Assembly: GCF_009730915.1 (NCBI RefSeq)
Contig: NC_052477.1
Span: 2,178,611 to 2,242,610 of the forward strand
Source: Dioscorea cayenensis subsp. rotundata
Lineage: Eukaryota; Streptophyta; Magnoliopsida; Dioscoreales; Dioscoreaceae
Length of the DNA stretch: 64,000 nt
Reading direction: 5' to 3'
Part shown: piece after piece, positions 13,701-64,000 of the stretch
Numbering within the stretch: the first letter of the stretch is position 1
How the letters are laid out: each line of letters opens with the position of its first letter
Notes under the pieces: model-generated
Told to the model about the DNA's origin: nothing
Databases searched by the model: none
Seen by the model: only the letters and a program-made list of their open reading frames with translations
Program-made: the position numbers and the translations under genes

Positions 13701-14363
13701 CGACAAAGCAAGACAAGCAATGCTTGAATCGTGTGCGGCAATAAACCTGGACCAACGCGACGACCCAAAGTGATCCACCCTGAGCTGCCCCTTCTGCGCG
13801 CTAGGGCACACCAGCACCAGCGATCCCTGCTGCTGAGACACCTCACAAAGCCCCTTCGGGTTGGGCAAGGTCACAATCTCCTTCACTAGTTTCAAATTCG
13901 CAAAATCATAGACAATAACCTTCTGATGGCACACGACGATGATGTTTTCACGGCGCAGCCGCACAGCGCGAAGCTCAGAACGGAAACCAAGCTCGCCGAT
14001 GAACCTCGACAATTGGTTGTCCCAGATCATGATCTTCGACGGCGGGCAGTGCGGGCTATCGCCGCCGCCGACAAGGGCAAAGATGTTGGATTGGAAGAGC
14101 ATCTCGACAATCCCGATCCCGCCTGCGTTTCCATTGAATTCTTGCCGGAATTTCTCAACAAAGGGGTCACAGCTGTAGATCCGAAAGCCATGATCGGTGC
14201 CAGCAGCGAAGCAGCTATCATCCTGATTGAAGGAGAGGTGGAGAAGCTTCGGCAAGCTAGGGTTTTGGGTTGGGACGTCGGCGTGGAAGGGCTCTTCACG
14301 GTGGTCTTCAGGGAGAGGATTGGGATTAGGGTTTAGATCGGAGGTGCCGGAGACGGCCGCCAT
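10752..14363 (-). CDS. ATG18: ATG18-type PROPPIN (WD40, PI3P-binding autophagy protein)
   Basis: PROPPINs are seven-bladed beta-propellers that bind PI3P on the forming autophagosome and recruit lipid-transfer machinery. Four exons join in frame: 13614-14363, 11782-11983, 11084-11210 and 10752-10842, giving 389 residues, close to the shorter plant ATG18 members. Exon 1 encodes the early blades ([42 protein letters not shown]). Exon 2 opens with [20 protein letters not shown] at residues 251-254 is the L/FRRG phosphoinositide-binding motif. Exon 3 encodes [19 protein letters not shown]. Exon 4 ends [19 protein letters not shown]. The N-terminus contains an NPNPNP stretch encoded by telomere-like CCTAA repeats. 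The paralogue letter cannot be assigned by eye. No frame breaks are seen. Confidence 0.95.
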
Positions 14364-14399
14364 TGACGAGTGAAGACGAGGGCAAAAGCTTTGAGGTTT

Positions 14400-15281
14400 A
14401 TTATGGGAATTTTATGTAATAAATAATGATTAACTTTAAGATTTACACTTTGCACTTAAACCCCTGTGTTATATATTTATTATTGTCTTATAACTTCTTT
14501 TATATTTGCAATGTGCCAAGGGTTTTATGATAATAGTGTTTTTATATTTTTATCATTTTTAAAACGTACGAAAAACTAGTATTTAAAATAAGGTTAGAGA
14601 CAATATATATCTTCTTAAACTCTTGTCAAGCATTGATCATATTCTAATTTTTTTTTTTTTTTTGTCCGAAAGCAATAAGGAACATATAAGTATAAGAGAT
14701 AGATAAATACAAAAATATGCACTAATTACAGTGATTTAAAAACTTCTGAAAAATAAATCTCCTCTGTTCTAAAGAATTGCTTAGTTCGCAGTAATATAAA
14801 AAATTATCATGTATTGGATGATAGTCTGAAAATATTATTATATTTAATATTACACTGACTGGAGGTGATAATATAGTAATATCACACTACCAACCAAAGG
14901 ACATTAATAAAAAAAAATTAATAATTATATTAATAATAAATTTTGTGTTTATCTTACATTATTAAATATGTGGTAACATGATAATTAATTATTTTTATTA
15001 CTATAATAATTTTATTACATAGTAAAATATCATTACCACGGAACAGCAACCTAATACTAAGTACATCTGGCTGAGCTATGTTGTTCCCATTTGTTTTCTA
15101 ATTTTATTTTATTGATGTGTAATTAATAAATAAAAATAGTGGAAACTTGACGGGTAAGTTTTTAATTTTATTTTTAATAAACAAAAAAAACACTTGATTA
15201 TTTTGTATACAAAAACAAACAGTCAAAACTACCATCACTTCTACAACATTCCGGCAACCACCGCCGAGCCGATTCAGCCCA
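14400..15281. other. AT-rich intergenic spacer
   Basis: It lies between the ATG18 promoter and the 3' end of the shorter SRC2-like gene. It contains poly-T and ATT-rich runs. I see no gene or clear mobile element. Confidence 0.5.
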
Positions 15282-37500: not shown

Positions 37501-40500
37501 ATTATGACTCACTCACAACCAGTGTAATTAAAAGCGCTAGGCGCCCTTAAGGCGCTAAAACATTTTATTGCCCAAGGCGAGAGGCGCCACGAAAGGCACA
37601 TGCCCAAGCAAAATAAAGCGTTAGTTAATAAATAATTAATATATATATATATATATATATATAAAATTTTTGGAATAATTGAAGTCAAGCAAAGTTAAGC
37701 TTTAAGTCAAACAAAGCATAACATAAAGTCAAGAAAACACTTCTTAGATGTCTAGAACTAAAGCTTTTAGAGTGTAAATTCTATCTTCATGAGTCATTTA
37801 ATTCTAAGCATCATCATCCTCATCATCTAAGCTAGCTTCAACTCCAAACTAGATTTAGAGTTGTTGCCTCTTCACTTTTCTCTAATTAATAAGTTAATCC
37901 CTTAATTCACTCATTATTTTTTTTAAAAATACTACTTAAATCACCTAGTTTTTCTCTCCTAAATTTATTAACTGTGCATTTTTTTAAAATCACCTATTTT
38001 TTATACCCTAAATTTATTTCATTTCATATGAGTAAGTGTACTTTTTTTAAAATCACCTAGTTTTTCTCCCCTAAATTTATTTCCTTCCGTATTAGTAATT
38101 GTACCTTGTTTAAAATTACCTAGTTTTTCTTCCTTAAATTTATTTTTTTCCTTAATAGTAAATGTGCCTTTGTAAAGTCACCTAATTTTTCTCCCCTAAA
38201 TTTGTTTCCTTCCTTATTAGTAAATACGCCTTTTTAAAATCCCAATTTGAAAGCATTGAATATAGAGCTAATAGGAAAAAAAAAGAACAGGCGCGCCTAT
38301 TTTAATGCCTGGTGCCTAGCAAAAAGCGCTCGCCTTGGCTCGCCTCATTGAAGGCGCCTCGCCCAGAGGGTGTTGAGGCGCAGGGGCCTCGCTTTGCCTC
38401 GCCTGAGCGCTTAGGTGAGCGCTTTTCTCGCTTTTAATAACACTGCTCACAACTACCAGAAGATGAACCATTTATACTGGACACTAGACATAAGACTAAA
38501 ATCAAACATAAAGTGAAAACCCAGCAATTGCCAAGTTAAAGCAGGATAAAAAAAATTAAGGAAACTACATAAAGTTTAAACCAGGAAACTCTGTAGCTAT
38601 AGTTCAGAAATCAACTCTGGAGCAAGAACATCTAACCTGCCGCTCCACTGTAAGTGGTGTATACCCAGTCATCAGAAAGTGACATCTAGGAGTTGGAATT
38701 AGTGATGCAAGAAGACCAACCAAATCATTGTTCATATATCCTGGGTATCGCAGGGTAGTAGTGCTTGCAGACATGACGGTAGAGACCAATGAATTTGTTT
38801 GTGCAAATGTTGGATTGCTTAAATGCAGACGTTCCACAGCGATCCTATTTAGGGCCGTGTTATCAAGAACAACAACACAATCGGCATTAAGAGTCAGTCG
38901 CTTTAGAGTCAAAAGTGAGTTGTAAGGCTGAACCACCACATCACTGGTTTCCATCTGGTTGGGAAACACACTGTATGTCTGAACAAGTTTCTTGCTGTAG
39001 CGTTCATTAAGAGTTTCCAGCAAATATGAACCCATTCCTGCGCTAAAGCAAGGTAATTTCCATAAGCATATAAGAATATTTATTGAGAGAACTTCAGAGT
39101 AAATCATGATGAACATCAATGTAGTGATTCAGAATGAAGAACACACAGAATTGACAAGCATAAAGATTAAATAAATGAATAACAATATTATCTTATTGGC
39201 AAGCACAGATCTAATATGGGATAGTGGGGGGAACTACCCCTACTAAAATTTGAAAAATTACTTTTACAGTATAAATTTTAAATTATTTTTAATTTTGTCC
39301 CCAAATTGTAATATTGTGTGCGTGTATGATTCATAAAAATTGTGGGGATACAATTGAAAAAACCAAAATATTTTGTGACTAAATATAAACCAATTGTTAC
39401 AAATCTTTTGTCTTATATGAATGGCTATCACAGTTTAGATTCAATAAAAAAAAACAACATATAACCTATTTCAACATTCATGCCAGTTGCATCCCCTTTT
39501 TTCCCTTTAATCTATATCCTTACAGATTCTTCAAAATCAGAGCAATTATGAACCCTTTTTTTTATTATAATTGGCAATGAGAAGATTTTGCAATGATTTC
39601 AAAATATGAAGTCTCGCAAAGAACAATTATAAACCTTTAGTTAGTTTTTTATCATTAGTTTCTTTCCTTGTAATTTTGTCATCTTAAACAAAAAATTTTT
39701 ATTTAAAATTTTCCCCCACCAAAAAAAAAAATTCCTGCATCCACCTCTGCTTATCGGTAAATCTGTCAGGTATGATAAGACTTACCACCCTTTCTGGTCC
39801 ACTCAAATCACTATTTTAGCCTTATTATTTAAATCTTTACCAAGGAATCTTAACGCCAAGGTAGATGAGATATTGTAACATGCAGAGCATCATGCTTGTC
39901 AAACAGCTTGCCACATTATGGTCCATATCATGTGAATAATGGGCAATCGACTGGACCACCTATTTAAGGTATTGAATGATAACAATAGTCTCCAAACATG
40001 CCAAAAATCAGTCAGGCTTTAGCACATTCTGACTCAAAATTATGATTGGGCGACTATTCACCGTGGCCATACAGCATTTTCATCTCAAGTACTGTATTTA
40101 ATTGCTATCCATGGATCATACATGCCTTGAATGCTATGGAAAAAAGTACAGCATCTACACCAAGGAGCATAGTTACCCATGCTTGCCATGGAGTTTCCAT
40201 CATCATCATTCTACAAACCCATTTCGCATGGTAGGGAGGTTGAAAGCTACATGGTTCAGAACAAGAAATCCCATAAATCATGGAGAAGGGATATCTCAGA
40301 AATTGTCGAGAGTCATGTCTTTTATGATTATTTTTTCAACTGATGATAGAACTTCATATCTGATAGAGAAGGCTAATCATTGAATCTAACTCAGGCTTAG
40401 TGGTTCAGGGGGGAATTCTCTAGCCCGCTAGGAAAAAATAAACATACATAATTACATATGAATATTTACAAAACTTGCAAAATACAAAGGCATGCTAATC

Positions 40501-43681: not shown

Positions 43682-46600
43682 ATGGGGCAGGCCTTGCGCC
43701 GTGTCACGGGGAAGGTGGGGAGCTCAAGGACGCCTCCGTCTTTGGTCAAGGGCGTAGAGCCGGTGGCGCCGGTGAGACGCCAGGAGCCGACACCCCCCGT
43801 TGCCGGCGGGTCTGATGCAGGTGAGCTCCGAGGTGAGCATGCTAGGGTTTCTAAATGATTTCGTATAATTTATTGATTTTTAGTGGTTTTCTACTGTTTG
43901 CGTTGCTTTGCTGATTTGGATTTGGATTTGGAATTCTTTGATGAGATGTGGGAAAATGTATGAATTATCAGTCTAACAAATGTATGAATGTCTGTGATTT
44001 TGTTCAAAAATTGGTATAGAGTTGAGTGTTCTTGATGGTGGGGAGAATTAGAGACAATTTTTTGAAGGAGTTTTGGTTTGAAAGTGGAAGGATGTTGAGG
44101 TCTTGTAGAGATTGGTGTTTTTTTGAAGGTGAGTGATGGATGGTGTTGTAGGAGTTCAAGGGATGCTAATAACCTGCAAAAGCTAGTATTTTGAGAAGTG
44201 CTAAATCATGTTTAAGGTGGAGAGAGTAAAGAAAGATCGAAAGGAGTTTTTTCGATAATGGCTTGATATGATGGTGTGTGGTTTTATTCTTCAGTGATGG
44301 CAGTGGATGGAAATATAGGAACATTAGGGTTTTCTGATAATTGGCAAAGGTTTTATGCACTGTTATGTGTAGAAATAAGAGTTGAAGAAAGATTGAAAGG
44401 AGTTTTGTGGTAAGTGTAAGATATACGTTTTTGATGGCTTGTGGCCGTATTCTTCGATGAAAGCAGTTGATTAGAAGTATAGGAACGTAAAAGTATGTTG
44501 ATAACTTGCAAAAGCTAGTAGCTTTTGATGTATCATCATGTGTAGGGGAGGGTTAAAGAAAGATTTACAGGAGTTTTGTGGCAAAGGGTAAGATATATGA
44601 ATGTAAAGATGGGTGTTTTTGATGGAGAGTGTCGTTATTCTTCGGTTATGGTAACAGATGGGAAGTATAGGAGCGGAGAACGTCGGACAACACCAAAAGT
44701 ATTTCTACATTTCAGTGGTTTATGTGTGACCATATGAAACAAAAACAGAAATTTGTGTGGTTTTATGTTCTTCAAATATGCTTTCCTATGATCAGAACTC
44801 AATGGAGTAGAGGATTCTTGTTAATTATTAGTGCATTTTAAATTTCTAGAATTTTCATTTAAATGCTTATAATTAGATGTCATATTTAAGGTTTCTTCAT
44901 CGTCCCTGTTGGTGTTTTCTACACTTGTAACTAATGTCATCACCTGGGAATGTTTGTCTGCTGCTGACTGTTGACATTTTTAATTATCTATATATTTTAG
45001 AGGGTATTTCAAGGCCTGGTGATGATGTTGTGCTTGAAGAGAGAGATCCTGATTATGATGCCATGCTTTGTAAAATGGTTGGAAGAATCACAACAAAACC
45101 TGGTGGAAAACCTGAAATGGGTGAGGTAAGGTTATAATATCTACGTCTCATTTATTACCAGCAACGCTCATGAACTGAATGCTGATCTACTGCTCTTTTT
45201 AAACCTCCTTATAATCCTGAGAGATGATTGAATTTGACCTGTAGATGTCATTTATCAGCTGCAAATACAGCATGTTTTTCACTTTGATATGTTTTGGTTC
45301 CAAACTCCTAGACAAAAGTTTGAAGATCCAAATTTCACTGTTAGTTTGCTCATTTCGTCACCTATGAAGCCTATTGAATTTATTTATGGGCATGGAGTTG
45401 CTAGTTTTTGCTCTATGATCCCTATCAAATTTCCATATATGCCCCTGCAAAGACCTGAATTAGTCATATACCCTTGTAAAGTTTGTCCTTTAATATATAC
45501 CCTTGAAACATTGAGTTTTGCCTTTCCATATATACATATATATATATATATATACCCTATGTCTATGATAGACTCTATGTATATGCGAGGTTTTTGATCA
45601 AGTCCTTTCAAACCAATTACAAAATATCAGCATGGTCCTAGGTAGATTTAATAGAGCTCGTAATGTATATAGATTCAAAGGGGATTGTTCAGGTGAGCTT
45701 TTTCCTTAAAATCATTGGTGACAAGATCTACTTAACATTTTAGTGTTAAGTTCATCTGCACTGATCCTTGTAGATGCTAAATGGTTTTCGTGTAGATAGA
45801 TGTCTAAATGAGTGATATTGGAAATGGTGATCAAGTTTGAAGCGATAAATTAGAAGGTTGTTCATCTTGCTGAGGGTTCCAACGAAAAATGCTAGAACTC
45901 ATATATGTACATTCCCTTTTGAACAATGTTGAGTGCAGGGACTATGTGTGAATTAGACTTTTTGGTGAATTAGACTTTTGATAGTAAGTTTGATGTCTAG
46001 ACTCTAGACCTGTTTATCAATAATCTTATTATTGGAAATTACCTGTTTATCAGATAGTAAGAGAAGTTTTTCGGTTATCGGTACTGCCAACCAATTGTTA
46101 GCTTATCTCAATTGGAAACATTCAATTAACCATTTCTTAACATGTGAGAATTGATTTTTGTGTTCGATGTAGAATTAGAAAACTTCCTTTTAATAACATC
46201 TTTCCGAGCTCATCCACAATAAAGAACCATCTACTCATTAAAACTCGATCCTGGACTGCATCGAATCGAAAACCTTGTCAAGCAAGCTTGATTCATTCTC
46301 AAGCAATTGAAATTTGTGATTAAAGTTTGTTGGTACATGTGGCCAAGAATGTAATGTTTTCATTCTCTGACATTATATATACAAAAGGATTTCCTGGATT
46401 GAATCTATCGATGATCAATCGATTAAGTGAATGCATTTATATTACTTTTTTGTTGAGATAAACTGATTTTTATATATTTCATCATATGCAGGCTTTCATT
46501 GTAGAGAAATACAACAGACCGATGCCAAAGCTCCGCACATCAAAAGCAGAAGCTGATGGGCAAAAGCCAATACCTCCGGGAACCCTAACTGCCGTCCAAG

Positions 46601-46770
46601 TCCAGGAAATCATTCTTTTATATCAGGGCAAGTCCAGTGAGCACCAAGGGAAAATGCAAGTTGATGAGATAGCAAAAAAATTCAGTATCGATGCCATTCA
46701 AGTGCAGAGAATAGTCCAGTTCATCTCGTTGCTTCCGGAAGACCTTAACAGCAAAAATAACAAAACCTAA
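43682..46770 (+). CDS. NDUFAF4-like mitochondrial complex I assembly factor
   Basis: Three exons, 43682-43820, 45001-45125 and 46492-46770, join in frame (g|ag = Glu, then phase 0) to 180 residues. Exon 1 encodes MGQALRRVTGKVGSSRTPP with Gly2 available for myristoylation, as in animal NDUFAF4, followed by a Pro-rich linker. Exon 2 encodes the acidic block RPGDDVVLEERDPDYDAMLC and GRITTKPGGKPEMGE. Exon 3 encodes AFIVEKYNRPMPKLR and a C-terminal region PGTLTAVQVQEIILLYQGK...DEIAKKFSIDAIQVQRIVQF that parallels the NDUFAF4 end (basic repeat, then hydrophobic helix). The gene is conserved in plants but rarely named. The role in complex I assembly is inferred from the family. A telo-box (TAGGGTTT, 43843-43850) lies just inside intron 1. 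Confidence 0.75.
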
Positions 46771-46921
46771 ACACGGATAGACATTTTGTAATGTAAGAGC
46801 ATTCAATAAAGAGCTGAAAATTTTGTGTTGTATTTTTGCAACCTGTTTATCAATTGTAATCAAACCTCACCCTTTCCTGACAAAAAAGATGAATACTTTC
46901 ACCATACATGTCATTGTTTGC

Positions 46922-48069
46922 CTAATCTTCAGTGAGACTAAAAGAATCAGCAATCTGATACAGCTTCGCCCGGACTAATGACCAATCGGACTCGGGTGCC
47001 TGAGCATTCAGAGTGAACAGTTTTCCCGCTCGTGCGGTGCAAACGGCGACATTATGGCGTTGAAACGCTGTGCTTTCAACTTGAAACTCAAGAATGTAAT
47101 ACTTAACATTATTGACAGGATCTTCCCTAAGTTTTGCACCAACTAATGTGGCTTTTACATCTTGTCCTCTCCTAGATCCAGCAATCCTTCTAAGCACAGC
47201 TTCTCCCACTTCCTGTGGACCTCCAAAACTCTCTATTCTGCAAAAATCAATTGTGGAATGATGTTTACAGGTATCAATGAGCAAAGAACTTGCAGGTTTG
47301 ATTTAGTTGAGTACGAGAAGTCTTGAGGGACGGGGGAAACAATGACGCTGACGTTGAGCTCTCCGGTGGATCCCGGAGGGCCAAATGCCACTACAGGCTC
47401 ATTAACATTGCGAGGCGGCCGGCCAGCAGTTTCTCCGGTGATCGGAGACGGTGGATCAAGAGGCCTCTGAGCTTCTGCTTTGTCTACAATTCTGTATAGC
47501 AATGTTCTGTCTCCCACCCAATCTGCTGGGTATATGAACTCTGCATAGAACAACATCATCAAGAGATTTGAGTAATAATAACTTTTAAATATGGAGTTTC
47601 TCTCCAATTTATAGTGAAATAGTAATAATAGGATCAAAATTTCTCTAAATCTCTCTGCATATAATAAGCAACCAAATACCATTATTAATTTATTATATGA
47701 ATGTGATAAAAATACTTGAAACCTCTTTGCCTTCCTTTAAGATGTTATTTTCATATAATAAAGGTGAGACCACTTTTGAACTCCTAATTATAATCCAATA
47801 TTCATTTTGCCACTAAATACAAATACATAACTAAATAAAAATCAATTCTGTCCACAATGAGAATTTTTATTTTTATTTTTATTCCAAATTAAGAAACACA
47901 ATTATAAAAATTCCCTGATGGTTTTCACGCTACTCTTCAATTTACAATTAATTTTTCATGGTGAGCTATTTTTATTTAAGTGACCAGAATTTACTATTTG
48001 GACTAACCTCCATTATTAAAAATCTATAATATTTTTATCAAAAAAACGGTAAAAAAAAAAAATTAAAAC

Positions 48070-48115
<46 letters not shown>

Positions 48116-48863
48116 CTATAACATTTTTATCCATTTTTCATAAAAAAATATTTAATAACAATAATAATGTCCATTTGCAGGTTGTACATAAAATCAAAAA
48201 AACTTCTAAAAAAAGAAATTTTTGATCAAATCTCAAATCCATCAGATTTAGATGCAGAAAAAAAACAGAGATTGAGAATTGAATGGGGGTTGAGGGATTC
48301 CCAATGACATCTCACTTCTTCATTTCAATGTTATTCAACAAAAATGAGATGCCATTTAAGCAACCAGCAATTCAAAATTCAAACTCCAAAGTTCAATTCC
48401 ATTAAATCCCTCAATGAGAAATATAAATAGATTCTTTGGGAGAGAGCATTGGGTCACAATGGCATCTCATTTTTTTATCAATGTTTTTTTATCAAAAAAA
48501 TGAGAAGCCAAAAAAAGGAATCAGCATTAATCCAAGCTCCAAAAACTAGAAAACCATAGAGATAGAGATCAAACCGAAGCCATAGTTGGGAGCAAGGCAG
48601 CGAGTGAAACCCTGAACAGGATAAAGAACATCGAGGCGAAGACCACGGCCGAGATCAGGGCTGAGACCCAGGATGAAGCTAGTGACGCCACCGAAGTTAG
48701 ATCCAACCGCCACAAGCGATGCCGCCCCGATTCCCGTGAGCAGACGCCGCCGGAACACCGCCGCCATCGAGACCAACACCTGGCCGGAGCATCGGACCGG
48801 AAGCAAAGCCGAGGAGGAGGCCGAGGAGACTCCACCGCCGACGAGACCCAGCGCGAAAGCCAT
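46922..48863 (-). CDS. PsbP-domain thylakoid lumen protein
   Basis: Three exons, 48575-48863, 47315-47540 and 46922-47237, join in frame to 276 residues. The N-terminus looks like a bipartite chloroplast and lumen signal: a Ser/Ala-rich stretch, then a twin-arginine motif FRRRLLTG (residues 37-44) before a hydrophobic segment (IGAASLVAVG), as in Tat-exported PsbP-domain proteins. The mature part follows the PsbP fold: GFTRCLAPNYGFEFIYPADW, RNVNEPVVAFGPPGSTGELN, VSVIVSPVPQDFSIESFGGP, GEAVLRRIAGSRRGQDVKAT and the end SDWSLVRAKLYQIADSFSLT. The exon 2/3 join is chosen because TC|A restores FSIESFGG. PPD proteins assist photosystem or NDH assembly; which member this is cannot be said. Its 3' end lies about 150 bp from the convergent NDUFAF4-like gene. 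Confidence 0.88.
48066..48116. repeat. (AAT)n microsatellite
   Basis: About 15 consecutive AAT units in the intron between exons 1 and 2 of the PsbP-domain gene. A similar (AAT)n run lies at 31617-31665. Confidence 0.95.
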
Positions 48864-49964
48864 GCTCTCTCGAGTTTCTCGGTTTTTGAGAGCTCGTTTG
48901 AGATGGGGATAGATAAAGCGCTCGTTCTGGTGTGCCGCCGGAACAGTTTGAGCCTAAACTGGCAACCAATAGTAACCGACTTATTTAAATTTATATATTC
49001 ATTTTATTTATATAAATAAAGGAAAATTACTGTTCACCCCTCGTAATTTTCAAAACTTCCCAAAAAAAACCCCTCCTACTTTTTACTACAGACGGATGAC
49101 TTAGTTGAGTGTTTAAACTTCACTTTCTCACTCTCAGATTCGACGAATGGGTCAGTGTTGTGAAATCCCAGTTTTTAGTACGAAAATGGTGGGAAAGGAA
49201 AAGCGTAAATCACGTCGTGTTCGACGCTTTTTGAGAGAACTTTCTGCTTGGTTTCGATGAGACGATCTAGGGGTTACATTCGTCTTGTTATTCTCCTCGT
49301 TTATCATACAGAAATATATAAATCGGTTTCTCGAGCGGAAAATGAAATTGATTTCCATCGGATTGGTCAAGTGCTTCATCTTCAAATGAGTCGTAGTCGA
49401 TTTTTATTGTCGAGGCGAGCATGTGCCATTGTCGTGCTTCTCGTTTATGGTTGTAAAAGTTGTATTACTGACGAGAAAGAACGATGAATTCGACGAGTTC
49501 GTTTCGATTTGTAAAAGTTCTTCTCGTTTATGGTTATCTATTTGTATATTTTTAAATAATGTTTAACTATTTGCTATTATCCGTTTAAATATTTTTACTA
49601 ATATGTTTAATAATTGTCATATCCGTTTAATACTTCCCATCTCAGTTTTAACGTTATCTTTACATGTATAACTATTCATAAGCGTGTAAATTCTCGAAAG
49701 TCTCACGTAAAGCGGTGATCTTTTTCGTTTGATCGAATTGTTGGCATGTGCGCGTGGCGGTGTGCAAGGTTATGGTATCCCGTGCGTAGAAATTAGTGGC
49801 GGCATTAATTCTTATGCTGCGATATACATTTCTCGAACACCCGTTCGTTCTCGTCGATCGATATCGACGCTGTGCGTTTAACTTTTTCTCGGATACGAAG
49901 AGTCGAGTCAGCTTGTGGACTTCACACCATAAATAACCAGGAAGAACCCTCCCCATGGACAACC

Positions 49965-50020
49965 ACTCCTCGTCGTCCTCATCATCCTCCTCCTCCTCCT
50001 CCTCCTCTTCCTCCTCTTCC
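49965..50020 (+). repeat. TCC/TCG trinucleotide run
   Basis: A CT-rich triplet run that would encode a string of serines following ATGGACAACCAC at 49955. The surrounding frame shows no recognisable domain, so I do not call a gene. Confidence 0.7.
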
Positions 50021-50607
50021 CATGGACTGACCCAGCTCTGTCCGAAAAGGATGTTTTCAGTGAGCCTTCTTCCTTATCTTGAGAATCGATTAGCCGTAAT
50101 CACCGAACTAGTTAAACTATCTTTTTCACCTTGCCGGAAGTCCTCTCATAATTGCACGAATGCGAGAGGATTCTCCAGTGATGGATGACGGGAAAGCAAT
50201 TAAGAGAGCATTTCGACTTGGGTATGAAAAGAAAGTTTTTCACGTATTAGCGTGATTGCGGAGGATTCTCTAGAGGAGGAGATCAGTGAAAACATCCTTT
50301 AAGACGAGGGTTGACATTTACCACTGAGACTTTTACGTTAGCGTTTAAGAAAATGACGTCGATGTACTAGCTATTACGTTACGTGTTTAACTTCATCGGG
50401 ATCGATCGTTTAAGTCCCTACCATGACACATTGATTAATAGTCGTTTTTCATGAATGTGTGTTGTTTAACCTTTTTTTAATGTTATGCGTTTTGCGGGGT
50501 TCGAGTTGATGCGCTTGTTATGCGACCCGTCGTGAGCATTCGAATGTCGAGACACTTGTTTCGTTATCACGAGGGTCGAGTCGTGAGTGTCCAAAGTCCG
50601 AGCGGAC

Positions 50608-50692
50608 GTTGTAAATGTTGTAAATGTTGTAAATCTTTGTAAATGTTGTAAATGTTGTAAATCTTTGTAAATGTTGTAAATGTTGTAAATCT
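50608..50692. repeat. 28-bp minisatellite in the MULE
   Basis: Three copies of a unit made from 'gttgtaaat' repeated twice and then 'ctttgtaaat'. It lies in non-coding sequence of the element. Confidence 0.85.
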
Positions 50693-51939
50693 TTTATAAA
50701 TAAAAGCGAAACAATCGTATTTGTTGTGAACTCACGAAATTTAAGCAGAGACCTAGTAAAAAAACAATGTGGGAAACAAAAAAAGCGTCATTGTAAACAA
50801 TAGAAAAAGTTAAACAATACTCGAGTTACTCTTTAAACAATGAAAAGCGGTGTTTAAGAAAATACGTAAATATGTTTTAAAGCGGTGACCCGGGGAGGTA
50901 CCCATCTAGCGACGCGTTGTCGATTGAAAAGCATTCAATTTAAACAATAACATATTATTTACATGATATAGACTTTAGTTAAAGCAGGTTAACCGTTATT
51001 TTTAAACACTATATGTATCTGTTTAAACATAAAAAGCTTGAGCGTTTACAGGAGACTCATGTTGAGTTGAGAACTTTCATTCGAGCGATGACAACATGTC
51101 TTCCTCGCGACAATGACATATATTTCCCTTTTTGCCCTTGGGATGGAGGGAAAAAAATACCGCTCAATCACATCACGTCTAATCTAACCTCTATGCATAC
51201 AAGCTGTGCACTTTTTTTGTTTGCGATTACGATTGCTGTTTTGTTCTTTACATCTTCTACTTCTTCTTCAGTCGTCTTCGTTTTGTTCTTCATTTCATTT
51301 GGTTTTGATGCGATTTGGTTTTCGACCCGATATATTATGGAGAGTTTTTTTGTGGTATTGCTAGATTGACGGGGAGGGAAGAGTGCTAATGTTCACGGCT
51401 CGAGACTTCTTGGGAATTGGTGTTAGGTGAGATATGTGGCGATGGGGTCTCGAAGTTTCTCTTATCGAGGGGTTAAGTTCATCACACGGATGGATATAAA
51501 AGCGGTTTGCCCCGATAGAAAAGCGATGTTGACTTCCAGTCGGATGTGTCACGTCCACTCCGTCTTCAAATGTGTTGTAGTTGATCTTGTCGTCGAGGGA
51601 GCGAGAAAATGCGCCCGTTGCTGAGATCCTAATGAAAAGCGAGGTTTTACTCGTTGTAAGTTCCTTTTTCTTTTAATTATTCCGGTTATGCGGGGTCATT
51701 ATTGTTTAAATATGTCCGATCATTTGGTTAACATATTATACTAGTCCTTTACGTTATTAGTTAATTGCTTAAGTATTTAATTTAACGTTTAACTATTGTC
51801 ATTATCAAAGCTAAACATTATACTCTCAGCTTAACGTATTGATCTTTTCATTTTGAGTGAAGTGTTGGCGTGAATTCGAGTCTGCGAGTGCTCCCGATTC
51901 ATCCCATGGTGACCACGGCGGTGTGGGATGTCTTCCTTC

Positions 51940-53690
51940 CTCGTCGGATCGTTACGAAGTGTTGTCGTTGGATATTGGACAGACGTTTTTGACGGTGTCG
52001 AACATTTTTAGGGATGTGCTTGAAATCATGCGATCAAAAGGAATTTTTGACTTCGAAATTCATAAAGAGCGAAAAACATCGGGTGTCGTGGAATCTTGTT
52101 GCCGATGGTTGTCGTTGGGCGCCTTCATCATCGAAAAGAGTATAACAAAAATACTTTCGAGAATCAAGACAATCAACCCGTCGCACACTTGCGGTGGTGG
52201 CGTAGGTTGATCGCGTCCGAAAGCGTCGAAAAATGGGTTAGCGCGCGAGTGATTGAAGCTCGAGGGACAGTCCCTTGTCTGAGGCCATCGACATTCGGAA
52301 GGACATGTTGCGGGAACATGGTGTCCACATACCATACAAGCGAGCTTGGTTGGGAAAAGAGCATGCCGGGTGGTCCTCGGCCAGCGGTGACATCTCCGGC
52401 TATGATTTGTTGCTTTGGTATGTGGATAAGGTGGGTGAGGACAAATCCGGCGGCGTTGCGATGCGTGGAGAGGCGGTGATCGTTTTAAGCGTGCATTCTT
52501 TTCTTTCGGTAGCGTGTATTGTGGGATTCAAGAGGGCTTGCGGGCGGCTAGCTGTTTCTCGATGGTACCCACCTCCTTGGAAAATATCGGGAGTACAGCT
52601 CTTTGGGTGCTACGAGGAAAGATGGTAACAATGGTTTTTCCGCGTCGCCTTGCGGTATAGTCGACAGCGAGACCGATGCCGATTGGACTTGGTTCGTATC
52701 TAAGTTGAGGCGATGCCTTATCGACGGGTGGAGATTATCATGAGATAATTACCTTCCGTGTCGAGACAGGTCGAGGGCCTTGTGAGCGCGATTGCGAGTC
52801 TTCCCTTCTTCGCCACGTGCGTCGTCTTCGACATTTGGAGGCCAATTTTATGAAAGCCAATGTCGAGACTTGGGAAGGCATTGAGGGAGGAGTCTTGGTC
52901 CATATGCTTCGCATTGCGTGGGCATCACGGCTAAAGATTTCGATGATACAGTGAATGAGCTGCAGTAGTATCACCCGAGCTCATCATTTTGGTTGATTAA
53001 TAAATCGGATATGGCACATTGGTCGAATTATCCGTTGGAGGTGATCGTTGGGGTGAGATGTATTCGAGCGTCAGCGATCGTTCAATGCTTGGATCAAGGA
53101 AGCTCGTCATTTTCACGGTGGCGAAAATGGTCGACTCCATAAAGATCTGCGAATGTTGATTTACACTTAACATTTAGTATTACCCTTTAAACATTCTCAA
53201 TCTTTGTTTAATTACACGTTTCGACTTTTAAATATTAATCATTTCGTTTATTTAATTACAATAATGTTTTAAACATGTTGATGAATTATTTAACCATCAT
53301 TTGTCTTTGTTTAACCTTATTTGCGGACACTAGCGTGCTACGAATTATTTGTCGAAGGTGGCAGAGTTTATGGTATCCCTCGCAAACATGCTTACGTGAC
53401 AATGATGACGAACACCAGCGTACATCGATTTATAGCGGGTACTTCAGCGTCGACAATTACAACTGCATACAAAGGAAGCTATATTCCCCATGCACGACGA
53501 TGACGAGGCCTTCGAGACGGAAATCGTGAGCTTCGTTCTGGACTGCGTGACTAGAAAGCGACACAGGGCGGCCTAGGCGAAAGAGGATCGAGTCGCCCAG
53601 CGTTTGATGTCCATGAGTTACATTAGCGACTGCCAGGATCCGGTCACAATCGACGATCTTGCAATGAAAAGCATCGCCGACTAGACATTG
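51940..53690 (+). pseudogene. MuDR/mudrA-type MULE transposase, frameshifted
   Basis: Pieces of a Mutator-like transposase occur in the right order but in changing frames. They are the N-terminal DNA-binding domain (FDFEIHKERKT near 52050, HTCGG near 52185), HGVHIPYKRAWLGKEHA near 52317, KDGNNGFSASPCG near 52620, the hallmark DWTWFVSKLRRC near 52685, NKSDMAHWSNYPLE near 53003, FNAWIKEARH near 53085, and the SWIM-like zinc site GIPRKHA near 53375 followed by YFSVDNYN near 53445. In family members the SWIM reads GIPCKHA, so a zinc ligand is Arg here. About 53160-53320 is non-coding and TTTAA-rich, probably an intron. Multiple frame changes make the gene non-functional as read. The family call is secure from the ordered motifs. 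Confidence 0.85.
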
Positions 53691-53754
53691 TTAATAAACC
53701 CGGCGATGACGGAAACATTGTGTATTTATACTTGAATTGAATGTATTTACGGAG

Positions 53755-54290
53755 GCATTGTTATTTTTAAAGCGGATACTCTGTAATTTGAAATATTTCA
53801 AGCGATGTTTTAAGCGATATATGGTATATTTAAACAATGAAGCGGAAATGTACACAACTCTGAGCGTAAATTAAACAATGAAATGAAAGCCGAATGAAAT
53901 TTAACACGCCTTACAATTGAAAACAAACAAAATTTACATTGAGATATACAAAGTCATGTTCTTTGAAAACAAAAACAACGAATTGAATTGTGTATTGATG
54001 GGCGACTTTCCGTGTTGAGTTAAACAATAAGTGCATTCATTTAAGCAGGAGAAAGTGTTATTTTTAAAGCGGGTACACCGTGATTTGAAATATTTAAAAG
54101 CGATGTTTAAGCGATATATACTATATTTAAACAATGAAAGTGAAATATGCACACAATCATAGCGTAAATTAAACAGTGAAATAAAACCCAGATGGAATTT
54201 AACCCGCTTTACAATTCAAAACAAAACAAAATTTACATTAAGATATACAAGTCATGTTCTTGAGACACGAAAACAATGAATTGAATTTGT
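53755..54290. repeat. Two-copy tandem repeat, about 290 bp, between the convergent MULE genes
   Basis: Copy 1 starts near 53766 and copy 2 near 54057. Both read 'gttatttttaaagcgg.tac', 'gaaatattt.aa.agcgatgttt', 'taagcgatata', 'atttaaacaatgaa' and 'acaaaatttacatt.agatatacaa.gtcatgttctt'. They differ by scattered substitutions. The repeat occupies the spacer where the two genes converge. Confidence 0.85.
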
Positions 54291-54379
54291 CGAGTTTACA
54301 TTTGAAAACAAAATTGACGATCAGGATATACTGAGACATGTTATTCAAACAATTTAACGCAGCTGGCGACCCCCTTTGT

Positions 54380-56303
54380 CATGGACGACGTTGCCCTCCC
54401 TCCTTAAGTATCTCGGGTAACATACCCAGTAATCGAGGTAAGGAGCGTGCATCTGCGGTGGCCGTAACTTCTCACCCCCGATGAATTGCTCGATAAACCG
54501 CATGGCGTGAGGCCGATGTGATCGGCGCTTCCTTGTTTTGGGCGTGGGGTTTTACGTAGTCGTGCAGGCGGGATGCTTCTTGCCTGGGCCGACTCGCCCT
54601 AACTCCATATCGACACAAAGGTCGAGATAGATTCCATTGTCGAGATATGCAAGTCGAGATTAGAATACCCGATTTAAATACCAAGCGAGATATTAATCGG
54701 ACGTAATTAAAGAACTTACCATGTCAGTGCGTCCTTATCGTACCCCGGACATGAAGAATAATACTGTATTCTTGTTTATCATTGTCGGAGGACGACGACA
54801 TGGAAGTGGCCATTCATGATTATCGGGAGGATGACAATTTGAACTTCATGCGAGGTTGCTTGCGACATCCCCGATCATAGCCATAATTGTGTCATGTGCG
54901 TCGTCTGCTTTGACATAAGCAGTATGAGCGATGATCGATGATGGAGGCGCTTCTTATGAGGATATGGCTCTTTGCTCGGCGACTTTTTGTATTATGCATA
55001 CTGAAAGCGTCCATCACATCATCGGTGACCATCTCCTTCCCCTCAAGCGGGCGTGTATAACTTTGTGCGTGTGGTGTCGGCAGTGACGTCGTTCTTCCAC
55101 ACGACGGTCTTTGAGGATTAAACGATAACGAGATATTAGAAGACCATATTGTAAATATTTAAATGATATTATCAATTGTTACATGATATTATATATAATT
55201 AAGCGGTAAAGGCGAAAACTTAAATGATAACATAATGGTATTAAACACTATTAGGTAATAGTTAAACACTATAGAAACTCTTTTAAACAATATCATAAAA
55301 AGCGTTACACTTACGGTCCATGAGGCGGTTGAGGAAGATCCTCATCAACTCACTGCTCGTATTTGTTAAAACGACTCGAGGCCGACCCATTTCTTCTTCT
55401 TCGGAATAAAAGCTTTCAGAGCCGTGCGGTCCAATTTTTGATTGGCGCTTGATCATCTCTCTCGTTGCTCGGTCGGGGTCTTCATCGAGCATCTTCCTTC
55501 GATCGCGGGGGACGATGCGACGGCATCATGCTGACAGCACGTCCTTACATTGTTGTTCTTGTTGTGGGATTGTGTACAGCTCCGATCTTGAGGGACGAGC
55601 GGTGGCGACATCAACCCGCGAGACACTTCCTTACGTGGTTCTTGTTGTGGTGGGATTGTGTCTGCTTGGGCTAGCGATCTTGTATGCCGCGGCCACGACA
55701 GCGGATTAGAGCGATCTTCTCGGCCCGTGGCCGTACAGCGGCATCGTTGGGAGACACGCGCCCTTAACTTGTTCTTGACGCCGAGGGATTGTGTCCATCT
55801 TTGATCGCCGATCTCGGCAGGCGGTTCCAGCGGGTCGGCGATTTCATCGAGGAAAGAGTCGGCGACCTTCTCAGCCGTGTGCAGCGGCCACATCATCTCG
55901 ATGTCCTCCATGAGTCGTGGCCATGTCATCAGCGGCGACGGACTCGATGCTGACATCGTGCCGATGGTGTTGCTATTGTTTCATCGTCGTCGGCCGGTGG
56001 AGGCGAGGCTGATATGTTCTCCTCTTTTTCGCAAGTCTCTTCGAATGTGGCCACTGGAATGACCTTCCCGATGATGTAAGTAGATGCGTCAAATTCAGCG
56101 CCTCGTTCGTCCCGGGTGCTTGGTTCTTTCGAGGGATGGCGCGAGGGTTTGTGAAACGTCCTTCCAGCGCCTCGCACGGCGACAAGCCGAGGAAACTCGG
56201 TCATCAATATCTGGCATGCCTGCATAAGAGTTGCGGTGACATCTTCGCCCAATGTTACCGGTGAAAGTGCACCGCGAGTCGGAGGCCATGGTCGGGGGCC
56301 CAT
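54380..56303 (-). pseudogene. Ulp1-like (C48) peptidase of the MULE, frameshifted
   Basis: Minus-strand pieces follow the order of Ulp1-type catalytic domains: VTDDVMDAF with VCIIQKVAEQRAISS in the next frame (about 54960-55030), VILPIIMNGHFHVVVL (about 54785-54835), and MRFIEQFIGGEKLR (about 54460-54503). The His of the GHFH segment corresponds to the catalytic His. Where the family has Q...DCG before the last helix, this copy reads KQGSADHIG, so the Cys appears lost. Upstream to 56303 is a GC-rich, Pro/Arg-rich leader without recognisable domains. A TTTAA-rich stretch at about 55135-55315 may be an intron. Ulp1-like domains carried by MULEs are known from the Kaonashi group. The frame changes argue against function. 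Confidence 0.6.
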
Positions 56304-56399
56304 CGTTGTCGTGGTGAGGGGTTGTTGCTGCTAGGGGTAGGGGAGGGCTTCTCCGGTCGGGAATGCGTCGCTGGCGTGGTGGGGAAATTTTGGAAGTAG

Positions 56400-57537
56400 G
56401 AGAGCGGCGTCAGTAGCCCGCGATAGAGAGCCCTGATTCTCTTGATTTTCTCTTGATTTTTTGAGTGCCAGATTGATAAATTACCTTGGCATGTTCACTT
56501 GAGAAGGAGTGATCCATTTCATCTTGACAACTTGTGTGGGTATTTTGTTATCATAAATAAGGTGGACTTCGTTGACTCTATTGTAATTTTTCGCTTCTCA
56601 ATTCCTTGTTGTTTGTAAAGTGCGGGAGTGCATTATCTGTGGTGATTGCTTTCTTGTTTTGTTTCTTTCTATTTTTTATTATTTTTTCTCTATGGCATCT
56701 CTTTGTTGTATTTGTTGTTTTTCTTAGTTGTTTTGTTATATATTCATTCTGTCTATTTGTTATGTTGTTTTTGTTCTCTTATTGTACCGATTTTTTTTTA
56801 ATAAATAAGTGGTTTATCTATTCTATTAAAAAAAATTCTAATTACTTATATAAACATTTTATGTTAAAAAATTTGAAATTAGATGAGGATGGAAGTGACT
56901 ATGGATTAGTCTTTCTGTTATAACCACCAAGATGTTGAAGATTTTTCAATAATACGGATAAGAAATAATTAAAATATCTTGGAGTACTGAACCGAAAGAA
57001 TGCCATTTTTTTCCAAGAAATTAATTAGTATTAATTAGTAATCTAACCCATATTATATTTTTTACCCTGAATTATAAATAAAAGATTTGAATGGGATATA
57101 GATAACATTGAAATATGGATGGATATTGGTTGGGGATAACATAGTAAAAATCACTAAATTGATAAATTATTGGGGTATAAACCAAAGATTAAAAGCACAA
57201 ATACGAGAGTTATTACAGGAACAAATGATCAATGATTCAACAATGAAAGACTTAATTCAAAGAAAACTAAAATTCTCATTTTTTTTTCCTTTGAAATGAA
57301 ATGAAACAAGAATTGTCTGGAGGTAGACCACCACCACCACCACCACTCATATTTCCAATGTCTTCAAAGATTTAATGAGTGTTTGTTTCCTAAGTCCTAT
57401 TCACAATCCTAACATGTAAACAAGAATTTTGATCAGCAGGAAACAAAACTGGGAAACTCTGTTGAATCCTCATCTGTCGAATCCTCGTCTGCCCGCCGAC
57501 AAATTAATGTACAAACTAATGATCAAGAGATCATCAA
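56400..57537. other. Spacer between the MULE and the LUMINIDEPENDENS-like gene
   Basis: T-rich sequence at about 56600-56830 followed by AT-rich unique sequence. A (CCA)n run lies near 57328-57347. No gene is supported; the right part probably holds the 3' untranslated region of the LUMINIDEPENDENS-like gene. Confidence 0.5.
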
Positions 57538-60500
57538 TCATCTCCAATCTCGGTCTCGCCCTCTCCGGCCAGCATCACTAGGCCGGTTTTGCCAGTCGAT
57601 GCTCGCGGGATTCCAATTTGCAGGCCATTCAGGCCTGTAACTTGAGCCATGTTCCCTTCTAGAGTCTGGAAGTCCTCTATTAGAATACAACTCAGCATTG
57701 TTCCTCACTGCATTCATTTTGGCCTTGAGAGGCTGAATACATTCTGTGGTTATATTGGTTAGCATCAAAATGAGTACTCGGGGCGACACTAGAGCGGCAG
57801 CCAAGTAGGCATAGTAGAGTTCAACAAAAGGCCTAGAAGCATTGTGCATTTTGTGCCAGAGATGAATGATATGCACTTGTATTAGAGCTTTGTTGAGCAT
57901 ACATGGTAGCAGCTGGAAGCTGTTTATAAGCCCTGATGATTCATGAGGTGTGATTCTGTGTAGTAGTAGGGTTCAAGTTTGTTGTTACTGTCAACTGAGG
58001 CATTGTTAAGACAACGGCGGGCACATGAGGAGGTTGCAGTAGCTGAGGTGGATTTCTGGTGAACGGTGACGGCTCCGATCTCCATTCGCTCTGTCAAACA
58101 AGGAAAAGTTTAGAATAAATAGCAATGACAATGAGCATTGAATCAATCAATGGTGTTTAGTGATATAACCCACCCTTGACTCTGAGGGCGGGGTTGGCGA
58201 TGGAAGCGAAGTCGGTTCTTGAATTTCTCTAGAGCTTTGAGCAAATCCAACTCCGCTCTTCTTGAGCATATCCAGCAAGGCTACTGTTTGGTGACTGGTC
58301 ATGTTGCTCGTCTGGCCGGAAGTCAGGGCGAACACCAGCTCAGGGTTTTTAAGAAGCACAGCTAGCAACTCCATATCGGCTTCAGGTGGTGCATTATTGA
58401 TTGCCGGAGCCAAAGAGGTTGCTGTTGGCAGGACCTCCACTTTTGAAGCTTGGATGATGCCATTGGGCAAAGATGAAGAAGACGATTCAGGAATATCAAC
58501 TTCGGGTGGCTGCTCGATTGGTATTTCTGTAGTGAGGCTGTCATCGAAGTCCATTTCCGTATCCCAAAGGCTCCTTTGGATTGGGAGGCACTTCCTGTTG
58601 GTTTGCATACAATGTTTCCCTTTTCGGCGAGTCCTCGCCGTCTGCACTCCAACTTCCTTGCTGTTTTTCCCCAGCTCCAGCCCTCCACAATGAATTGATC
58701 TTCACCTCTGCACAGAACACCAGTCAAAACAAAAGCAAGAATTTCTCAGTCAAACAATGCCTTGCATTGGTAACTCCCAGAAACAAAAATAATGGCATAA
58801 AATTTAAATAACAAAAACATCAAGGTGCATGTGTAATCTCTCTCATTGTTAGTATGATTTTGTTTTGTATAACAAGATCTGCTTAAACATTGTTAAAGAG
58901 AAAACCATCAAAACCAAATACTGTTCCCAAACATATTCATCAAATGGATGATGATTCAGACCAAATAACAACACCCAACCAATTGCATCCTCTGAATACC
59001 TCACATCAGCAGAATTTTGATTAATTGAGCAAGAAATTAATGTCTAACCATCAAACAATTTTTGGTAACTCAGAACAACATTAAAAATAAAATAAAATAA
59101 AATAAAATAAAATAAAATAAAGGAGGTTAAGGTAAGTCCCAGAGATTGGGTCCAACATGCATACTGAAGTTTATGGAAGGTGCTTTTGTGCAGAAGTAAT
59201 GAAAAGAACACTTGTGACATCATTTTTACCCATTAACTCCAACAAATTAATTGTCCCCAAAAGTTAGCTAACATTGTGTTACAGAATACTAGATACTTCA
59301 GCTCAAAAATAAATACCCCAACCTCGGTCAGCGCAGAACAACCAAGAATTAACACAGGCAAACCCAAAGAAAAATTAAACCATCATCACGGGGAGCCATC
59401 AGCCTAAATAAATAACACATGAGATCATTACAAAGAGGCCAATGAGGACAAATCTGCAAACCTTGCAAAACCCACCCACAACGACAACTATCTTTTCAAA
59501 TTTTCCACAGCATTGAAAGTCTGAGGGATGTGATTTCCAGAGACCGCTTGATGTAACCATAATTATACAATAAAAATGATAGTTCTAGATTGAAATGAAC
59601 CACCATATACTCAAACCAGAGACCACATAGTCTATAGTTATAATGCATCCCACATAATGAATCAGTGAAATAACTCTCAACTATGTAAACTTCTGCAAAT
59701 AAAGAAAGGGAGTCGGATATAGAAATGAAGTAAATTCAGGTTAGAATCTGGTTGAATTGACCACCTGAATATCATGTTTGTTGGGCTATATCAAAGCGAT
59801 TAGGGCCGGGGCCAAAATTATTCAGGGAGATATTTTGTATCGGCATCAGAGTCAAATTTAATGGTGAGGGATTACTACTAATACATCATAAATGGAACTT
59901 CTGGAAGGACAACTAAATGAACCCAGATACTTTTTACTCATCCAAGCAAGTTCTACACTAATGTCCCATTCATTGTTAGCAAAGATTGAATAGTAGCCGC
60001 TGGGCGGGTTGCAAAATATTGCAAGAAAAATAGCTTCACCAATGCCTGCGGTGAACTCCTCCACATACCAGCCCAACTCAAAGCAAGTGCTGTGATCAGT
60101 GTTCGTATAGAGACAGAGAGACAGAGAAGACAGAGAGAAAGAGGTCCAGCTGTTTTCCTGGCCAATCTCCATAACGTCAGAAAGATGATAAAAATCCTTA
60201 CGGCTTGAAATTTCCGGAAGGGTTCAGTATGAGATCCTCCAACATCCATGCTATTTAACATGACCAAACTTAAACATGCAGTGCACGTCGAAAGCTCGAT
60301 TACCTGTGTGTTGGAGGCTGCGTGCCATTGAGGATTCCGAACACTCTTTAAGCCTCTCAGTAAGTGTTCCGGTTTGTTTGACTTTGGTCGGTTTTCCATC
60401 TTAACAGGAGACGGTTTCTAATAGGTGTCAGAGGTTTCTTGTCCTCATTCCACTTTCAGTATGAGAGCTGGGCTATTCTAGATGAAGGCGTTGTTTGATA

Positions 60501-63500
60501 ATTTATTGAAAGATATTTCACGGTTTACGCAGATGCCCAAAGATTTTTCGAGGGAGTGGAAAGCACATCACTCCTTGCCATACCATGTTTGCATGAACAT
60601 AGCTCGCATCTTTGCTTTCATAAAGATGTCATCAGCCGAGCATTGAGCGGCTTTTGATTTGAAGAGCCCTGCTCTTGCAACCTGTGCTTACACTTCTGCC
60701 AGCAGCTTTACTGTCCAGGCTGATCCTGTATTGAACTTTGGGCTGCGCTGCTTGTTTCTGGCTGTGTCCCATTAAGGAGCGATAAACCAAAATCCAAGTA
60801 TAGAAACTTAACATAAATCTGATCAAATACAAATAATAATTTGAGCAAAAATATATTCGACTAGTAATCTAACACAATCGAAGTTTCTTGGCAGCTAAAA
60901 CTAATTAAAGAGAGAACTGGCTTCAGAGAGAGTATCCAGCATATGACTTGCTTTATGTAATACTTCCTGGGGAATCAAATCACATCAAATTTTGTGAGGA
61001 AAGCAACTGTAGCGAAATTGTAACAAATACAGTAACAGCTGTCTGAGAGAGAAAACTACTCACCAAAGACAATTACCCACTTTCCTTATATGAAACCCAT
61101 GTCCTACATGTCTGTTAATAGCGCTGGGAGTGTCAAGTCAAGCATGGCTCCCAGGCTCATCCTCTCTAATGATCTAATGTAAGCCATTTCCTATCTAAAG
61201 GGGTCTTGCTTCTGGTTTATTAGCTTTCTCATGATCAAGTCCAAGCAAATGGAGAAAAATCAGAAGCCCGATAAAAATACACCATGAAGTGGTCATACAT
61301 AAGAACCACTCCCAAAATTCAAGCCTACGAAACATCCTAACTACTGCAAGGGATGGTCGCTTAACACACACACACACACACAAACTAAAATATAGAAAAC
61401 CAAATAAACCCATGCGTGTCACACCATCCCTGGAGTTCTCTGGCAGCCCGGAACCTCACTGGCAAAAGAATGAGAGATACCTGCAGCCAGTAGTAATAAA
61501 GAAAAGATGAGATAATTTGTTTCTATGATTTCGTTTTTAGCAGAAAGGATGCTACAGAGTTGAGGCAGCTCTGACTATGCCTTTTGTTTGACTCATCAGC
61601 TGATGATGTGAGGAGCTTCAGCCCTGGTCGAGGCTTTCCTGTTCTCCTGCATAAATCAATAGCACTTTGTCTCTGACGATATTAAGGAGGGCTCTGCAAG
61701 TTTACAACAAAGAAGCTCCTTTTCTACCCAAATAATAAAACACCATAATAATATTTATACCCTGCTCATGTCATTATTTTCAGTCAATGCGAGTATTTCC
61801 TCTAAAAGAGGCAAGAAAAGAATACCAGTCACCTATTATTGAAAACAGAAATTTAAGAGGCCTGCTGATAATATAATATCATGAGCAGCTTACAGGGATG
61901 TCAAAATTTTTGGACTGCCATAGATTCAGTCACTCAGAAGGATTTCACTGATCCATAGCATAATAGTAAAAACAAATACATCAAAATATTCACTCGTCTG
62001 CTGCAGTGTAAGAAGAAATCCACGTGCCTTTGTTTCCAGCGAATGATTTCCTTATCAACATCTCTGGGCAGTTTGGGAAAATTGACTTCTTCATAGCTGG
62101 TTCCGAATAAAAATCTTGCTCAACCTGGACAGAAGTTCGCCTGTTTGATATGTCTGATCTTCAAATCAGATAAGTGAGTTCCAAAAAGGTCACCATCAAT
62201 TTCATGCCAATAAATAAATAAGAACTTATTACATGTATGTGAAAAAATTTCAAAAAGTGACAGGTGACCGGGTTGTAAAACAAAGAAACTATGCCAGCTG
62301 AAGACAAAAAACAAAACAAAACAAACAAAAGAATAATCAACCAGAATTCCAATGATTCATAGCTAAAAGAGTAAAGCAAGGTTTTAGGAAACTAAGCGAG
62401 CACATGTAAGGATTGGTTCAAGCTCCAATCTTAAATGTGTGATGAAGGGACACAAAACTGTTGCACTTCTAATAGGATAGAGAAAATAAAAACGAAACTA
62501 TTATATGAAGAAAAGAAATTTATTAAATGCCTTATAATTTTAAGATCGAATAATTTACAACGGACTATTAGGTTAATTTTAAGTTTGATGGGGTATAAAA
62601 GCAAATTCTGTTTTGTTAACACAATCAAAGTTATTTACAAAGAAAAAGCTATAACCAACACTAAAATAAGATAAGCACTGATGTTGGCAGCTGCACCAAG
62701 CACACATACACACCTGATGACCTATTATAAAAGCGCGTTTTTTTAGAACTAGCTTTTGCAAGATGCTTACCGGCATGTCTGTCAGTGGCAACACTTTATG
62801 CAGAGGCGGGCATAGAACCTGTAACCACAACAACAAATTTATATGAAGTACACTTGGGGAAAACACAATTATAAAATAACAAACAAAATTTGTTGATGGC
62901 AAAAACATTCGAGATGGCATGGACCACGAAAGTGAACTAAAACAAGCTTATTGTTCTTGAAACATTCACTAAGCCATCGATGCTAAAATGGGTATACCAC
63001 CTTTAGTTAAGAACCTGAACAGGAACATCAAAAACATAATCAGGTAACTAAATATCAAAGTATATCTTGGAAAATCTGACTGCATCATAAATCACCAGTT
63101 CCAGAACAGCTATGTTACAATTTGAAGAACCATTCCATGAGCTTGTACCTGCCCTGAAAATGTCTCTTCTTTCTTCATTAAATTGAAAATATTCTCCAGA
63201 AATTTTTATCCTCAGAATCAATACCATCTATAAGCTTCTTCTGGGGTGAAACAAGAAGCACGCAACTATTGAACAGTGCCTTCCAGTGGAATTTACAGGG
63301 AACCTGTTTGCCCGCCTTCGGTGGCTTTGCATTCCCTGTACTCCAGAACCACCAGTAGTGTTGGACTGTCCATAGGATTCTGATGTTCAAACTTGCGGGT
63401 GCTTCAATGGCAACAGGCAAGGCCTTTCGACACTGTTGGGACACACATCAAGGGGTTTCCCTTGGAGTAGCTACGGTGAGGTTGCTGCTCACGGACTGGA

Positions 63501-64000
63501 TGAAAAGCTTTTCTCCCCTGGAGCGGATTGACCAACAAGAACTCCTGACCTGTGTTTGCAGCTAATATACACAAGGTTATGCATTACAGGAAAGAATGAA
63601 AAAAAGGAATACAACAAAACATTATTAGCGAAAATGATTCCCATGCCAAGCATCACCAACCAATATCTGGTGACGAGGGGTTCTAGAAATGATAACAAAT
63701 CCAGTTAAGAAAGCAAGCTATACAAAATAAGCCGGGCCAGAAAGATATTACGGGCATGGAGCATAATCCCAACACCCAGCTACTCAACATTTTTAAGAGA
63801 AAAAAGACTAGAAACATTTTTCTTAATTTTAAAAAAAACAAATAAGACATACATGTTGCATAGAACTTTTGAACAACTTCGCTTTTGAAATAGACTAAAG
63901 CTGGGTCCACTAGCAGATATTAGCAAGTTAGCAAGTCCATGATATAAACTAACTCCTCATTTGAGGGCCGTGCAGGAGCCTGAATCATCTAACAATACGT
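57538..64000 (-). pseudogene. LD: LUMINIDEPENDENS (LD) homolog, 5' end off window, many frameshifts
   Basis: LD is a nuclear homeodomain protein of the autonomous flowering pathway. Its homeobox would lie beyond 64000. Recognisable blocks in family order are: about 63045-63560 (FLENIFNLMKKEETFSGQ), 62760-62818 (VLCPPLHKVLPLTDMP), about 61990-62150 (DISNR, ELLSRLSKIFIRNQ), about 61560-61650 (GLKLLTSSADESNKRHSQ), about 60570-60770 (SADDIFMKAKMRAMFMQT), 60304-60420 (KPEHLLRGLKSVRNPQW), 58174-58707 (WDTEMDFDDSLTTEIPIEQP, LLAVLLKNPELVFALTSGQ, LPSPTPPSES) and 57538-58090 (Tyr/Asn-rich tail ending GRRGRDRDW). Splice borders are well kept, but the frame changes at least five times inside exons, mostly by one base at short homopolymers. 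Either a decaying pseudogene or poorly polished sequence fits. Confidence 0.8.
59083..59121. repeat. (AAAAT)n microsatellite in an LD intron
   Basis: About seven to eight consecutive units of 'aaaat/aaata' inside the roughly 1.6-kb intron upstream of 58707. Confidence 0.9.

Follow-up and report, generated by a model that had tools for sequence, protein, structure and literature searches.

LUMINIDEPENDENS (LD), which belongs to the autonomous pathway of flowering, is described in PMC9303297 as having a homeodomain followed by a TFIIS-type helical bundle. For small genomes, PMC12007338 describes how long-read errors cause frameshifts, such that sound genes resemble pseudogenes. The Oxford Nanopore (ONT) start and end adapter sequences are printed in PMC7730629. 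We analyzed a window of 64,000 nucleotides of the Dioscorea cayenensis subsp. rotundata genome (C7:2178611-2242610; 584.2 Mb in 2249 contigs), the right end of which holds the 3' part of a gene with broken reading frames. We take this gene to be LD, a name resting on a sequence-only reading of the window and on domain order. X denotes the contig ending at the right end of the window, Y the contig starting at C7:3464057, and copy Y the second rendering of the gene on that contig.

The joined exons of copy Y gave a homeodomain-like match (PF00046, all 57 positions; E value of 0.00031, 21 bits) and then a match resembling the TFIIS bundle (PF08711, Med26; E value of 0.027, 14.7 bits), the same order as in the LD description of PMC9303297. 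However, both scores lie below the curated Pfam cut-offs (22.9 and 20.6, respectively), and the comparison was with Pfam profiles. The exon carrying homeodomain positions 1-46 lies outside the window and is a 5' exon of copy Y. The window LD also resembles the genes described in PMC12007338, in that long-read frameshift errors would mimic a pseudogene. The setting differs: that description concerns small genomes, whereas the locus analyzed here very probably reflects two contig ends that overlap but were left unmerged, in a genome of 584 Mb.

Two renderings of the LD region on C7

Window positions 47533-63989 are rendered a second time at C7:3464072-3480391, in the same orientation and 1.24 Mb further along the pseudo-chromosome. 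The two renderings share 85.5% identity over 16976 columns (blastn; 1282 mismatches and 699 gap openings), which is low for one locus and counts against an overlap of contig ends. Genome searches with window segments 57300-59000, 60000-61000, and 63000-64000 each hit the window itself and one further place, within C7:3473765-3480391. The search for a second, intact LD copy that the sequence-only reading had proposed thus yielded an open-frame copy on the same pseudo-chromosome, which that reading would have counted towards a pseudogene. We do not read it as evidence for one: where it lies, the adapter remnants flanking the overlap, and the error profile described below indicate that it most likely shows the same locus, carried by an overlapping contig.

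The large exons of copy Y lie within stop-to-stop stretches of 190, 253, 187, and 197 codons. Six exon stretches, comprising 622 codons, are free of stops, as is a seventh; "open" refers to these seven stretches and not to a verified transcript. Copy Y continues into the 5' LD exons, which the window does not have. Across the same six stretches, the window carries 78 indels under one permissive scoring, 70 of them frame-breaking. The seventh stretch (414 nt), missed by that count, holds 26-34 by four scorings (Table 1). Because cheap gaps favor indels, we applied four scorings to four of the exon stretches; counts for the remaining three come from a single scoring. In a six-frame search with the joined protein, the window copy gave matches of 37-42%, which contained 4 and 8 stops. 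Three of the five matches on Y contained one stop each, and these matches overran exon ends into introns.

The sequence-only reading had reported that the frame switches inside exons at five named places (six points). All of these bear frame-changing indels relative to open copy Y, at or beside the point (57717, 58566, ~60639, 62096-62139, and 63202). Copy Y also reads as had been predicted at two of them: TT rather than TTT at 58566, and one more T on the + strand at 63202. That list of breaks was a large underestimate. The exon borders had been called normal, and by eye AG acceptors precede the exons at 63549, 58708, and 58090, the three borders inspected. Other genes in the window had been described as unbroken. 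A tubulin ORF (38607-39128) and a PROPPIN/ATG18-type ORF (13587-14411) matched Pfam families, which bears on these ORFs and not on whole genes; ORF 28859-29710, in the JMJ24-like gene, matched no Pfam family.

Table 1. Window coordinates of the overlap, the LD exon stretches, and the terminal adapter remnant
Feature	Window position	Strand	Observation
Overlap with contig Y	47533..63989	.	same orientation in Y; blastn
LD last exon stretch, 184 codons in Y then TGA	57541..58090	-	9 indels, 8 frame-breaking, all four scorings
LD penultimate exon stretch, 180 codons in Y	58168..58708	-	3-4 indels, four scorings
LD middle exon stretch, 138 codons in Y (approximate ends)	60305..60736	-	26-34 indels, four scorings
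LD exon stretch, 45 codons in Y (approximate ends)	62027..62157	-	6 indels, 4 frame-breaking
LD exon stretch, 31 codons in Y (approximate ends)	62718..62818	-	9 indels, 7 frame-breaking
LD exon stretch, 31 codons in Y (approximate ends)	62925..63013	-	8 indels, 7 frame-breaking
LD exon 4 (our count); in Y 453 nt, open, 151 codons	63095..63549	-	23-42 indels, four scorings
ONT end adapter remnant, last bases before N run	63991..64000	+	9/10 match to A+GCAATACGT

Edges of the overlap and nanopore adapter remnants

At the Y edge, a 1000-N gap ends at 3464056 and similarity starts at base 16 of contig Y. At the window edge, similarity stops 11 bases short of the last base, and an N run then spans 2242611-2258610. 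This run is 16,000 long rather than 1000, which counts against contig ends that simply overlap; it may be partly masking, and the window-side contig end was placed by the adapter and the end of similarity. A genome search with window 44000-48500 placed the start of the Y match at 47533 and found no partner at Y for 44000-47532. The end of X thus overlaps the start of Y in the same orientation, as a dovetail. A gene spanning window 46925-48953, putatively PsbP-like by its ORFs, seems to straddle the left edge at 47533 and would be cut in copy Y.

We compared the sequence past the N run (65 kb without Ns) with the next 30 kb of contig Y and did not see LD carry on. This comparison gave two matches of 74-77% on the reverse strand, and the stretch matched recurs near C7:3.456-3.459 Mb and partly at window 55075-56381. 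Shorter repeat matches connect window 51115-56373 to both sides of the overlap on Y (BLAST).

Contig Y begins with GAAGTTACGTATTGCT, the last 13 bases of which are the exact 3' end of the ONT start adapter. The window ends with AACAATACGT, where 9 of 10 bases agree with an A plus the first nine bases of the end adapter. The last 8 bases of AACAATACGT are absent elsewhere on the + strand of the window, and one other window 10-mer (at 17842) lies within 1 mismatch of the 10 terminal bases. Both edges of the overlap therefore carry ONT adapter remnants, as expected of contig ends that are read ends. Genome-wide, the full end adapter had 14 matches with at most 2 mismatches, and a reversed control had 0. 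We extracted 8 of these places: at 3 of them a 1000-N gap is no more than ~100 bases away, and another sits close to where its contig ends. Four of the 8 have no N within 1.5 kb, which counts against adapters as markers of contig ends and makes a chimeric internal adapter at 64000 possible. Taking the adapters at the edges together with the 14 genomic matches, the assembly is at least partly nanopore, with read ends left inside.

These edges bear directly on a competing explanation, in which a true segmental duplication of ~16.4 kb left the window LD copy as a decaying pseudogene. An open-frame copy 1.24 Mb away on the same pseudo-chromosome and dozens of frame breaks in the window copy are what such a duplication would predict, but its boundaries would have to fall where a contig starts, where an N run begins, and where sequencing adapters lie. 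Together with the error profile below, this leads us to consider it very improbable. Instead, the broken LD is very probably an error-filled nanopore contig end that overlaps a contig with an open LD; its damage would stem from assembly rather than from gene decay. The last 16.5 kb of X (window 47533-64000) would overlap the first 16.3 kb of Y, both ends being nanopore read ends that still bear adapter. X and Y would have remained unmerged and been set 1.24 Mb apart by scaffolding, doubling the 3' part of one LD gene, open in Y and riddled with indels in X. Under this explanation, X and Y would be one locus, from the same or an allelic haplotype; poor accuracy at one or both ends probably blocked merging, and short-read polishing may have stopped short of the end of X, leaving the window end near raw-read quality. 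Of the two explanations that the sequence-only reading had offered, base-call errors at the right end thus gained support, and a young pseudogene did not.

Error profile of the overlap

Where sequences have truly diverged, indels are usually far rarer than substitutions. We counted both by stretch in a gap-friendly (cheap-gap) pairwise alignment; a MAFFT global alignment was dropped because it drifted in noisy stretches, where apparent mismatch reached 31.6% over one kb. With cheap gaps, the whole overlap holds 945 indel events versus 870 substitutions. By stretch, the counts were 36 versus 11 at 47533-49000, 589 versus 625 in the repeat-rich 49001-56500, 31 versus 13 at 59001-60000, and 261 versus 162 at 60001-63989. 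At 56501-59000, substitutions lead even with cheap gaps (28 indel events versus 59), and BLAST gave 250 gap openings versus 313 mismatches for window 57001-63989; both counts weigh against overlapping contig ends. Under the least gap-friendly scoring, two noisy exons had 23 indels versus 57 substitutions and 26 versus 32. An excess of indels over substitutions therefore depends on scoring, being true only with cheap gaps. Regardless of scoring, there are at least about 0.4 indels per substitution, noisy coding sequence included. Since the edges and adapters are independent of scoring, this dependence leaves the probability of overlapping contig ends unchanged.

Neutral decay would leave indels a clear minority, which is not what we observed with either cheap gaps (945/870) or BLAST (699/1282). 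In both of these whole-overlap scorings, there is about one indel, or at least half an indel, per substitution, most indels being of 1-2 nt, which argues against a true duplication. So does exon 4, whose 23-42 indels in 453 nt are, in our judgement, not expected for so similar a copy. Coding sequence is not spared at 60-64 kb, where indels are as heavy in exons (99 per 1120 aligned bases) as in introns (162 per 2623). At 57.5-60 kb, the quieter part, exons carry fewer indels than introns (13 per 1083 and 35 per 1336, respectively), a pattern that counts against overlapping contig ends and favors a duplicated gene.

Homopolymer errors, which the sequence-only reading had suspected, fit the quieter stretches, where most one-base indels fall in runs of three or more: 17/22 at 47533-49000, 14/18 at 56501-59000, and 14/20 at 59001-60000. 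They do not account for the noisy part at 60001-63989 (45/166), where differences are scattered in the manner of raw reads; this fraction, like that at 49001-56500 (78/388), is near background, as 21.7% of the bases of Y lie in such runs. We read this as two regimes, a consensus with residual homopolymer errors and near-raw sequence. The repeat at window 51115-56367 has a third copy, and all six pairwise comparisons among this copy, the window, and contig Y showed 5.0-6.5% short indels. The noise there is therefore not confined to one contig, and the third copy did not decide which contig is the noisier.

Substitutions are also patchy. At 58751-59250, none of the 498 aligned bases is mismatched, and stretches at 4-5% lie nearby; the rate is 1.3-2% in 57-60 kb and ~4-5% from 60 kb on. 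A duplication of a single age would hardly give such patchiness. We give scant credence to the reading that the noise conceals a genuine LD-region duplication of recent date, with the window copy truly disabled at some sites. A possible reading, to which we lean somewhat less than to its alternative, is that the end of X and contig Y represent different alleles of LD, as haplotigs, such that the difference is partly true heterozygosity. This would be a version of overlapping contig ends and not opposed to it. The 1.3-2% substitutions in 57-60 kb and the presence of LD 5' region pieces on C16 and C1322 are consistent with two alleles, but allelism alone accounts for neither the indel rate nor the adapters. 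An annotation or pseudogene census of this assembly could list a second, broken LD gene and so a duplication, 1.24 Mb apart, that is false. The signature seen here, similarity that ends at adapter remnants beside an N run and a very high indel rate, could flag similar places.

Further LD pieces in the genome

In the searches made, no place except copy Y had both halves of LD. Pieces of the 5' region were detected at C16:2347819-2349762 and C1322:10370-13118 at 87-96% identity (96% over 501 bases on C16; 93% on C1322). Both matches end at one shared point upstream of LD, C7:3484982, beyond which C16 resembles C7:3498055-3496414. Copy Y therefore has ~11.4 kb at this point that is missing from C16, perhaps an insertion for which the haplotypes differ. 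About 1.3 kb of the LD middle, introns included, is found at C9:21622784-21624084 at 89% identity, either as a dispersed gene fragment or as another misplaced contig piece. Together, the C16, C1322, and C9 pieces may represent additional haplotype segments left unmerged, or else gene fragments that mobile elements have carried. An LD intron of copy Y also contains a high-copy repeat (L006:1069-2036), with dozens of copies at 88-95% among the 40 of 3611 candidates that were scored.
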